From: Haloarcula pelagica
GTDB taxonomy: Archaea; Halobacteriota; Halobacteria; Halobacteriales; Haloarculaceae
Length of the DNA stretch: 64,000 nt
Assembly: GCF_030127105.1 (NCBI RefSeq)
Contig: NZ_CP126161.1
Coordinates: 1,178,001-1,242,000 of the forward strand
Reading direction: 5' to 3'
Part shown: piece after piece, positions 37,100 to 40,235 of the stretch
How positions within the stretch are numbered: the first letter of the stretch is position 1
Layout: each line of letters opens with the position of its first letter
Notes under the pieces: generated by a model
The model's input: only the letters and a program-made list of their open reading frames with translations
What the model was told of the DNA's origin: nothing
The model's database searches: none
Translations under genes and position numbers: made by a program

Positions 37100-37282
37100 T
37101 CAGTGCTCTTGCATCACCCGCCCTCCCCGTCGAGAGACATAGCCACGGTCCTCGAGATCATTAGCAGCCTCCCTGAGGAGCGAAACAAGAACGAGCTCCG
37201 GGAGACCCCGCGTAGCCTGTCTCGCGAGCCATCGCTCAAGCGATCTCTCTACCTCACCCACCTCGCCATCTGAGTCCATCAC
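37100..37282 (-). CDS. Small hypothetical protein coupled to DUF6735-like gene
   Basis: A 60-residue protein, MMDSDGEVGEVERSLERWLA, with ELVLVSLLREAANDLEDRGYV. Its ATG overlaps the stop of the preceding gene (ATGA), so the two are co-translated. Helical, no known motif. Confidence 0.55.
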   Translation of the reverse strand: MMDSDGEVGEVERSLERWLARQATRGLPELVLVSLLREAANDLEDRGYVSRRGGRVMQEH

Positions 37283-37911
37283 TCATCCTCCGGCGTTTTG
37301 ATGATAAGCTCCGAGCGGTCATCGGCCCACCGAGAAAGCATCTCGGAAAGATACTCCCGTGCTTCCCTTGGCGAGAACAGCTCTCGATCACAGAGATCCC
37401 CTGCAACCCGTTTCAACGCTCGAAATTCTCCCTGGGCGTACCCATCACCGACTGGCTCGCCGTTGTACCACCGCACGGTCCTGAGTGCGCCATTGCCCAC
37501 AGTCGGCTCCCCGGAGATTCGCTGGCAGTCGTATTGTAACCAAAACCAGTGTGTCCGATAGGCCGTCACCTCGAAATCACTGTCAACGATGTAGAACGCC
37601 TCATGATGTAGATAATCCAGATACTCCGTAAGCACTGCTTCAAGTGAGATGGCAAGCGTCAGTGGGTCGTGATCGATATCTGTTGGAGCTACCCCGGAAT
37701 TCTCAACTAATCGACTCACCGTTTCATCGTCGTACGATTCAATGAGTGCCGCAAAGAGTCGTTGGGCGTTCTTACTTGCTTCCTCGCCACCGAAAGGCGT
37801 CTCTTTGGTGATCTGGACTTTTACTCGGAGATGCAATCCACCCCAGTGGGTGTAGTGGATGTTATACAGGCTGTCAGGTCGTTCGTATGCAATGAGTGCT
37901 CTGTGTCCCAT
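37279..37911 (-). CDS. DUF6735-like haloarchaeal protein
   Basis: A 210-residue protein starting MGHRALIAYERPDSLYNIHY, then THWGGLHLRVKVQIT, AFYIVDSDFEVTAYRTHWF, GNGALRTVRWYNGEPVGDGY and REAREYLSEMLSRWADD. The opening MGHRALxAYERPD...THWGG is characteristic of the DUF6735 family, whose function is unknown. ATG at 37911 is chosen for that reason; the frame is open further upstream. It is coupled with the 60-residue gene downstream. Confidence 0.75.
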   Translation of the reverse strand: MGHRALIAYERPDSLYNIHYTHWGGLHLRVKVQITKETPFGGEEASKNAQRLFAALIESYDDETVSRLVENSGVAPTDIDHDPLTLAISLEAVLTEYLDYLHHEAFYIVDSDFEVTAYRTHWFWLQYDCQRISGEPTVGNGALRTVRWYNGEPVGDGYAQGEFRALKRVAGDLCDRELFSPREAREYLSEMLSRWADDRSELIIKTPEDE

Positions 37912-38027
37912 ATCGAATCTGCGAGACGTGGATGACGCCCCGCACCCCTCGGGGGGGCGAAAATATACGCGAGATGAATCACCCAGACACCGCCACATTC
38001 GATTCACACTCCACCTTCGGATGAGTC

Positions 38028-38258: not shown

Positions 38259-39104
38259 CTACAACCGCTCTTCGCGCTCTGGGAACTCCACCCTGCTCCA
38301 GCCCGTCAGTGCAACCGAGACGCGTCCCTCGTACCAGCTCTTGGCTACAGCCCGGAACCTGACGCGCTCGCCTTCTTTGACTACGGGTTGGTCGCTCGCT
38401 CGCCAGACAGTGAACTTCGTGATCGACGTCCCATCCTCTATCAGACCCACCTGAGAGATAGCCGGACTGCTCGACTCCCAGAGCACCGTCACTCGACCAG
38501 CAATGTCCACCTCACTTCGATTTGCGTTCCCGATTATCTCGATTGGCACGACCGTCCCTGGCGCGAGCCACTCTGCTTCGGTCACCGAGACCGACGCATC
38601 CACGATATCTGCCCCCTCTGCCATCCGTCGTGCGAGCCTCTTCGAGAGTGCGGCCGTCGTCGTTCCCGTTTGGACCCGTTCTTGGATCCGCCTCGCCTGC
38701 TTGTTCACGCTCGCCAGTTCCTTCCGAGTCATTCCGGTCCGTGGGTCCACCCGATCTGGCTCCGCCCATGGGTCCACGCTCGCCGCTCGCTTCGAGAATC
38801 GCCGTCGACGTGCCTCGTTTCTGCGCTCGGCGACATCTCTCGTCCGGGCCTCCCGGTCTGAATCCTGTCTGTGGTCCCACCGGCTTCTGGTTCGTCCGAT
38901 CTCCGCCTCGCGTGCTGCCATTCGCTCTTCGGCCTCTAGAGTCAGTCCTCGTCCAGCCACCTCGAAGTGATTCGTATCGACCTTCGCCTGTATCTCCTGG
39001 GCAACCGACCGCTGCAGTTCCGGGACCTCCTCGGTAACCGCCTCATCTGCGACCGTCTGTTCATCGTGCGAAACTTCATATCGAATCGAATTCTCTATAC
39101 TCAT
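38259..39104 (-). CDS. OB-fold (RPA-like) DNA-binding protein, putative
   Basis: A 281-residue protein. The N-terminal half is highly charged and coiled (RDVAERRNEARRRRFSKRA, RKELASVNKQARRIQERV). The C-terminal half (about 165-281) looks like an OB fold of the RPA type: GRVTVLWESSSPAISQVGLI, ITKFTVWRASDQPVVKEGE, VRFRAVAKSWYEGRVSVALT. Such genes are common on haloarchaeal plasmids and integrated elements. A strongly hairpin-rich non-coding stretch lies just upstream. Single-strand DNA binding is inferred. Confidence 0.65.
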   Translation of the reverse strand: MSIENSIRYEVSHDEQTVADEAVTEEVPELQRSVAQEIQAKVDTNHFEVAGRGLTLEAEERMAAREAEIGRTRSRWDHRQDSDREARTRDVAERRNEARRRRFSKRAASVDPWAEPDRVDPRTGMTRKELASVNKQARRIQERVQTGTTTAALSKRLARRMAEGADIVDASVSVTEAEWLAPGTVVPIEIIGNANRSEVDIAGRVTVLWESSSPAISQVGLIEDGTSITKFTVWRASDQPVVKEGERVRFRAVAKSWYEGRVSVALTGWSRVEFPEREERL

Positions 39105-39695
39105 TGTAGTTCCTTGAAGGCGCCCATCCAGCGTCTTCCACTTTCACGACTTCCCAGTCGTGACTATCATCACACTCCGACAACCTCCTCGCGCGCTGTC
39201 CGCGCCTTCACGCGCCCGACAGGGCGCGGACAGCGCGCCCCTTCGAGTAGAGACAACCAGTGACGCGCGACCGGCCAGCCCGCCCGAGTGTCCAGCTTCA
39301 AGTCGGTTTCTGGTCTGAGGGACGAAGACCGAAACTGCGCTTGATGCTGGCGTCCCGAAAGGGCGAGCGAGGAACGACCAGCGAACGCGTTCGCTGGTCG
39401 TGGTGCGGGTGTCTGGCCGGGCGGGCGGGACGGGCCATGCATAGGACCAACCGCCCACCTGGTGGACTGAACGGGCGAGGCCGTTCGACGAACCCCGGCG
39501 ACGCAAGTACCTCCTGGAGCGGCGAGTCGCGGGAGTCGAACGAGCGCGGGCTTTCAAGTTGTGTGGATCTAAGTACCACTCTGCTCTCTCAAGGGCAGCG
39601 GGTTATACGACCTCGAAACAACCTGCCAACCACGCCTAACGTACACGCTCTCTGCAGTACAGAGGTATTTCTACTCCGTCGACCGAGAGTCTCGT
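39105..39695. other. Hairpin-rich GC-rich non-coding region
   Basis: About 590 bases with no protein-like frame. Three perfect inverted repeats stand out: 8-base arms TCACGACT/AGTCGTGA around a 4-base loop (39144-39163); 16-base arms starting GCGCGCTGTCCGCGCC (39191-39206 with 39223-39238); and a 28-base uninterrupted palindrome centred on GAACGCGTTC (39374-39401). It could be a structured RNA, a recombination or replication site, or paired terminators. Confidence 0.6.
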
Positions 39696-40235
39696 ATGAG
39701 CGCTGGGAAGATCACCCTCTACATCGCAGCGAGCGTGGACGGCTATATCGCCGACGAGGATGGGGGTGTTGCGTGGCTTTCGGAGTTCGAAGAGGCAGCG
39801 AGTGAGGACGATATCGAAGAGTTCACTGCGTTCTTCGAGAGTGTCGACTGTCTCGTGATGGGCGCAACGACGTATGAACAAGTACTGACCTTCGGTGAGT
39901 GGCCGTACGATGACAAACCAACGTACGTGTTCACGCATCGGGACCTCTCACCTGCGACTGACGCTGTCGAGTTCGTTGACCAGCCCGTCGCAGATGTCTC
40001 GACACACCTCAAAGAACAGTATGGGCATATCTGGCTCGTCGGAGGCGCACAACTTGCAGAAGCGTTCTTCCACGAACAGGAGATTGATGCACTTCGGCTA
40101 TCGCTCGTGCCAGTTCTCTTAGGAGGGGGGGTTCCACTCTTCGCGGGAGAGTACGACCAACAATCGCTCCGATTGCTCGATACCACGCGTCGCGAGGGCG
40201 GAATCGTTGAACATCAGTATGTGGTCTGTGGCTGA
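39696..40235 (+). CDS. RibD C-terminal/dihydrofolate-reductase-family protein
   Basis: A 179-residue protein of the DHFR/RibD_C fold: ITLYIAASVDGYIADEDGGVAWL, CLVMGATTYEQVL, YVFTHRDL, IWLVGGAQLAEAFF and LSLVPVLLGGGVPLF. These mark the YyaP/YwjB-like group that uses NAD(P)H for unknown reductions. Intact with ATG at 39696. It stands alone. Confidence 0.88.
   Translation: MSAGKITLYIAASVDGYIADEDGGVAWLSEFEEAASEDDIEEFTAFFESVDCLVMGATTYEQVLTFGEWPYDDKPTYVFTHRDLSPATDAVEFVDQPVADVSTHLKEQYGHIWLVGGAQLAEAFFHEQEIDALRLSLVPVLLGGGVPLFAGEYDQQSLRLLDTTRREGGIVEHQYVVCG

Follow-up and report, generated by a model that had tools for sequence, protein, structure and literature searches.

The phage T4 protein gp32 is autoregulated, and structured mRNA leaders and translational operators are one of the described systems closest to the element analysed here. 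A second is the Frpo/ssi element, a promoter of single-stranded DNA in bacterial conjugative plasmids; Frpo is reported to lie immediately upstream of ssb and to be stimulated by SSB (Nature 2024, PMC11541004), in a study that searched regulatory regions of 50-350 bp and whose main text does not contain the word archaea. The third are the rfa5 and rfa6 genes of the Halobacterium minichromosomes: deletion of either is reported to sensitise Halobacterium to mitomycin C, transcript levels among the Halobacterium RPA genes are reported to be lowest for rfa5/6 and rfa2, and Hfx. volcanii is reported to have related OB genes (PMC5924565). Its passages on these genes concern the rfa proteins, their deletions and their transcript levels, and do not mention an upstream cassette. 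Many haloarchaeal mRNAs are also reported to be leaderless (PMC4574771).

Here we describe, starting from the window (the whole analysed stretch of 64,000 nucleotides of Haloarcula pelagica DNA, from a contig of 3.53 Mb), a portable 5′ cassette, found on haloarchaeal plasmids and in chromosomal copies, which carries covarying hairpins and stands before genes for OB-fold proteins (OB genes) or, less often, before TFIIB-family (TFB) genes. It resembles Frpo/ssi in being a non-coding element that folds, directly precedes a plasmid ssb and would act on the template strand, and differs in its length (450-850 nt), its GC-rich and archaeal character, its occurrence also before TFB genes, its single-strand activity, which is here a prediction, and its stems, in which no core promoter boxes are recognised (a test for recurrent runs of six A/T returned none). 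Since such boxes are missing from the stems we do not claim membership of Frpo; what recalls the bacterial Frpo upstream of ssb is the gene (SSB) together with its plasmid backbone (ATPase, primase, SSB). With structured mRNA leaders and translational operators the cassette shares covarying hairpins that reach the start codon and a Shine-Dalgarno-like loop, and unlike them it has no wobble preference on the mRNA strand. The OB gene behind it falls, by place and size, in the family of rfa5/rfa6, and by the same marks the family member on pNRC100 (299 aa) is Rfa6.

Inverted repeats of the window and the cassette around them

The three perfect inverted repeats of the preliminary description (P3, P2 and the 28-base palindrome, Table 1) are present where it had placed them, and, with loops of up to 20 allowed, no other perfect arms in the 64-kb window exceed those of 16 and 14 bases. 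Among 20000 dinucleotide shuffles of 39144-39401 an arm of at least 14 arose once and an arm of 16 never, which bears out the claim that chance is an unlikely origin and rules out chance hairpins as an explanation. Compared with 100 shuffles, folding gave z-scores of -5.5 (plus strand) and -4.1 (minus strand) with RNA energies over 39140-39440, and of -7.5 (plus) and -5.9 (minus) with DNA energies over 39105-39440. The repeats are flanked by the OB gene and, at 39696, by a RibD-like gene, and we take the hairpin stretch as presumably non-coding because the equivalent stretch is free of genes in four of six annotated relatives (L113, L114, L115 and L267); the other two (L266 and L268) have one small hypothetical ORF there.

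The feature is larger than had been reported, as these hairpins are the window's copy of a cassette of roughly 450-850 nt that ends at the start codon of the OB gene. In the window it starts at about 39555 and reaches the start codon at 39104, with conservation continuing to about 39057. Of this anatomy we are highly confident.

Table 1. Features of the cassette and of its surroundings in the window
Feature	Position	Strand	Basis
Whole cassette, read toward the OB gene	39057..39555	-	Sharp left end in relatives, constant landmark order, several codons conserved at nucleotide level
Left end of cassette, GAAAGCCC	39548-39555	-	Sharp boundary in relatives
Long-range stem closing the upstream domain (landmarks I and F)	about 39257-39286 with about 39411-39437 (39257..39437)	.	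Window fold; consensus of 43 relatives, in which some pairs show compensatory changes
28-base perfect palindrome (14-base arms)	39374-39401	.	Hairpin at the equivalent place in L005-L010
Stem P1 (CCAGC...GCTGG), inner hairpins variable in relatives	39292..39350	.	Fold and relatives
Hairpin P2, 16-base arms, 16-base loop	39191-39206/39223-39238	.	Arms of 10-19 bases in relatives
Hairpin P3, 8-base arms	39144-39151/39156-39163	.	Seen in the sequence; paired in predicted folds of the window
Hairpin P4, alternative form, GAAGGCGC...GCGTCTTC	39116..39138	.	DNA fold of the plus strand
Single-OB-fold gene of SSB/RPA type, 281 aa	38259..39104	-	Profile matches, predicted structure
DUF6735 gene	37279..38016	-	Near the OB gene in some relatives; homologues in 15/80 OB loci
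VirD4/TraG-like ATPase, 1219 aa	43252..46911	+	Weak family matches; homologues in 27/80 OB loci of other haloarchaea

In relatives the left end is followed by the landmarks, by P2 (often at about -150), P3 (about -70) and P4, and in many copies by P5, a hairpin flush to the start codon that is absent from the window copy; the order of the landmarks is constant, yet not every landmark is found in every copy. P4 takes another form in relatives, with a GTGA loop in many copies, and the alternative P3/P4 form of the window copy is common to other lineages. As the window copy has this alternative P3/P4 and is without P5, modules seem to have been exchanged. Among 206 copies, redundant ones included, 172 carry both P2 (at least 12 paired bases) and P4, 14 P2 only, 16 P4 only and 4 neither. 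The doubled P2 in L066, L081 and L109, copies that contain N, are probably assembly artefacts.

Immediately to the left of the cassette 31 copies have a few pyrimidines, with no conserved sequence and no TATA signature, and a promoter directly before the left end was rejected on this ground. Runs of six A/T recur in the cassette only as TAAAAT, which could serve as a promoter box on either strand. In L042, L062, L111 and others it stands in the loop of a GGGC...GCCC hairpin, about 290-450 nt ahead of the OB start.

Copies in Halobacteria and their gene neighbours

DNA matches to the region with 70-88% identity are found in the loci of eight relatives (L005-L012), in seven of which the OB gene adjoins the region, no OB match being found in L011. 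The cassette was defined with 80 named loci, the best 80 of 386 candidates, and its core covariance model was searched in 145 Halobacteria genomes at E up to 1e-7. This returned 144 match rows in 78 of the genomes (two of the rows are second matches in doubled copies, and one place is counted for each strand); the other 67 have no core match at that threshold. In 128 of the 144 rows an OB gene of the same strand starts 13-202 nt (median 93) after the end of the match, which substantiates the tie of the hairpins to an OB-fold gene that had been drawn from the window and for which a search for further copies beside such genes had been proposed. Frpo is marked by a place immediately upstream of ssb or of an early plasmid gene, and these same 128 matches have that place with respect to the SSB-type OB gene. 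The remaining 16, read by stretch, comprise 10 upstream of TFB genes, one before an OB gene after an insertion (L283), and others that are weak or truncated or lie at a contig end (two rows for one place). The L283 insertion puts about 1.5 kb of other DNA between cassette and OB gene. As 138 of the 144 core matches thus lie directly before one of two gene families, their placement points to a putative 5′ control cassette, where the preliminary description had put forward a plasmid-type origin or resolution site or an element end among the possible roles; 24 of 150 OB matches are without a core match.

The source genome holds a second cassette at C1:1550502, one replicon can have up to four, and pNRC100 of Hbt. 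salinarum has a copy as well. Among 148 genomes drawn from the phylum, with the share from outside the order listed in part, 13 had a match and all 13 belong to the window's order. The preliminary description had named a lack of conservation outside this genome as grounds for dropping its reading, and the conserved copies across the class show the opposite. A known RNA family was rejected, as Rfam gave no match at the gathering score in the window and none at E up to 1 in three relatives. Our literature search, mostly at the level of listings and the beginnings of abstracts, found no paper describing the cassette.

The OB-fold call itself holds. The protein matches NCBIfam replication factor A at 2.8e-16, below the curated cut-off, and the predicted model (mean pLDDT 69.6, medium confidence) consists of a helical N-terminal part and one OB barrel, with the archaeal OB domain 2ken as best PDB match (E 7.5e-8); a relative of the protein matches PF01336 at 1.2e-4, below the cut-off. 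Relatives of the gene are found on 185 plasmid records, in agreement with the plasmid-type DNA that had been suggested. A phage or viral home of the gene was rejected, since none of 50697 phage records has a relative and none was confirmed in viral contigs.

The TFIIB repeat is found above the Pfam cut-off in all ten TFB genes behind core matches, and in the record of Halobacterium sp. DL1 the cassette-linked gene is named transcription factor TFIIB. Eight of the ten TFB proteins have an N-terminal MSS, as most OB proteins do, and a MSSNNAS or SVEQ-like stretch is common to several TFB and OB proteins; OB queries against the TFB loci L269, L270 and L272-L274 found no further similarity. The TFB gene at L272:789-1868 has relatives of 95-98% identity on eight plasmids from several genera, much closer than the kinship of the hosts would suggest.

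The window appears to hold a piece of an integrated transfer-type plasmid, as is suggested by its VirD4/TraG-like ATPase, which in the window points away from the OB gene and whose homologues (49-75% identical among the six matches listed) adjoin other OB genes. PLSDB gives all 185 OB plasmids as non-mobilizable, MOB-suite makes an MPF_T call on four of seven plasmids opened, and transfer-type genes lie nearby on some plasmids. In L266-L268 the plasmid backbone reads, all in the same direction, transferase (known from the record annotation), ATP-binding protein, primase, primase-associated protein, small genes, cassette and OB gene, and the L267 proteins place the ATP-binding protein by weak HerA matches, the primase as PriS-like and the primase-associated protein in NF038197. 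On pNRC100 a primase-associated gene lies upstream of the cassette in the same direction, and in L113 the primase-associated gene is the part of the shared backbone in view.

The start-codon end and the folding strand

Covariation analysis across relatives, which had been proposed as a check, found that the stems covary, long-range ones included. The consensus fold rests on sequence-based alignments of 43 copies, chosen out of 94 mostly for carrying landmarks, and contains nested long-range stems with compensatory changes in some pairs; taking the predicted pairs of both strands, we counted on the tree of these copies 105 double changes from one Watson-Crick pair to another. Nested long-range stems that covary imply that the cassette folds as a single strand.

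Several marks at the end next to the gene would also fit an mRNA leader. In 54 of 63 copies a Shine-Dalgarno-like 4-mer occurs at 5-20 nt from the start (mean of shuffles 21.4, at most 33), a signal, at the sequence level, of a leadered translation start, which makes it probable that transcription takes in at least the last 20-30 nt of the cassette. At the leaderless position an A/T-rich box is absent (A+T 0.28 at -30..-24). By a strict count (at least 4 perfect pairs, beginning with GG, ending 0-2 nt before the ATG) P5 is found in 45 of the 63 copies with 20 different 5′ arms and is missing in 18, among them the window copy; a looser search takes 3-pair stems and includes chance ones. Conservation at the nucleotide level runs about 16 codons into the OB gene, and across the 63 copies one synonym is fixed or nearly so at codon 11 (GTT for 54 of 54 valines), codon 12 (TCG, 48 of 49 serines), codon 14 (GAT, 43 of 44 aspartates) and codon 15 (GAA, 51 of 52 glutamates), some of which are rare in GC-rich haloarchaea. 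A shared N-terminal signal of the proteins is a possibility for the codon conservation at 39057-39104. A fixed upstream site as pairing partner of the conserved coding stretch was rejected: a 7-base match to landmark G occurs in 11 of 63 copies, with nothing longer or general.

These marks are what a structured mRNA leader offers, that is, a long 5′ UTR whose folding would govern how the SSB-type and TFB genes are translated, perhaps in an autoregulatory way. It is the strongest rival to the reading we prefer, and it can call on the hairpin flush to the ATG, the Shine-Dalgarno-like 4-mers, the nucleotide conservation into codon 15 together with the conserved start codon, and the GTGA loop of P4 in many copies. 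If the mRNA strand were the one that folds, its stems should be expected to tolerate G-U pairs, as is clear for the SRP RNA of the same class, and we therefore counted one-step losses of pairing, read as mRNA, to G-U (G-T) versus to A-C. For the cassette 120 upstream regions were fetched and 112 used (8 had no assigned start codon), and the strand test took 143 of the 206 copies (landmarks present or window clade), 73 after removal of near-duplicates. In the SRP control (30 sequences) G-U exceeds A-C by 57:18 in the pairs that the predictions for the two strands have in common (two-strand pairs) and by 75:29 in all predicted pairs. The ratios of G-T to A-C for the cassette are 55:89 and 173:162, respectively, with 73 copies, and 51:67 and 188:226 with the 43 copies; under stricter thresholds the A-C excess is kept in two-strand pairs, and in all pairs the two counts are equal until the strictest. 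The difference between SRP and cassette (57:18 versus 55:89) has a Fisher p of 1e-7. Set against the substitution background of unpaired columns (342:395) the antisense lean has a p of 0.08, so that only the absence of a sense signal is firm.

The folding energies are divided. Of 72 copies (a further one, with N, was dropped), 64 have the more stable fold on the antisense strand after correction by shuffles when RNA energies are used, and 52 when DNA energies are used, and 27 of 30 SRP sequences have it on the sense strand; raw energies favour the sense strand of the cassette (62/72 with RNA and 48/72 with DNA energies), in support of a leader, and of SRP (30/30). A skew in the G+T composition of the sense strand, which may lie behind the raw energies, could also yield the strand difference in z-scores from perfect stems that are strand-neutral. 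By distinct stems the A-C versus G-T counts are 10 versus 3 for P2, 4 versus 7 for P3, 5 versus 2 for P4 and 2 versus 0 for P5, and taken one by one the hairpins decide nothing. A structured RNA, one of the roles considered in the preliminary description, is thus not supported for the mRNA strand, there being neither a wobble preference nor an Rfam match. The missing G-U preference speaks against a simple mRNA leader and is in keeping with folded DNA, perhaps of the template strand; with the sense strand also less remarkable than the antisense strand when judged by shuffles, we regard the leader as somewhat unlikely.

Other readings and the meaning of the cassette

A control region of double-stranded DNA or a plasmid origin, with protein-bound or cruciform inverted repeats and the OB gene as a linked replication gene, is in keeping with stems that are mostly perfect Watson-Crick, with neither strand being favoured beyond background, and with the plasmid setting. 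We find it doubtful, as nested long-range stems and covarying hairpins of 4-7 bp need a single strand, and up to four cassettes on one replicon and the copies before TFB genes are ill-suited to an origin. An antisense non-coding RNA, transcribed from the opposite strand and divergent from the OB gene, would draw on the wobble changes in two-strand pairs and on the z-scores, both of which lean antisense; this lean is weaker than that of SRP RNA and not significant relative to background, and with nothing in Rfam we think such an RNA decidedly improbable. Least probable of all is a single-strand initiation site for a plasmid primase, serving complementary-strand synthesis with the gene linkage as a secondary matter, for although a PriS-like primase and a primase-associated gene stand in the backbone of the three plasmids opened and a primase-associated gene is on pNRC100, strict linkage to the start codons of two gene families is not something it needs.

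Our leading reading, tentatively held and built on analogy with Frpo/ssi, is that the cassette is a promoter or initiator of single-stranded DNA. Once plasmid DNA is single-stranded, as when it enters a new cell or is repaired, its template strand would fold and transcription (or priming) would start on it, so that the plasmid's own SSB and TFB would be made early; as double-stranded DNA the cassette would be mostly quiet, and its last 20-30 nt would act in the mRNA as a Shine-Dalgarno-bearing leader. The lean to the template strand, the low expression of rfa5/6 and the second target, TFB, fit such a role. On a slightly more guarded note, a cassette of this kind on the template strand might let an incoming single strand express the SSB and the TFIIB of the plasmid itself ahead of second-strand synthesis, as an archaeal form of zygotic induction.

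The cassette is a folding element of 450-850 nt that is common to two unrelated gene families across an archaeal class and has no matching Rfam entry. Given the copy on pNRC100 and the related OB genes in Hfx. volcanii, either reading, leader or single-strand promoter, is testable in model strains. As an mRNA leader it would be unusually long for organisms with many leaderless mRNAs. Read as a single-strand promoter, it would point to early genes being expressed in order when DNA enters an archaeal cell, of which we know no other sign, and it would suggest that these megaplasmids move as single strands.
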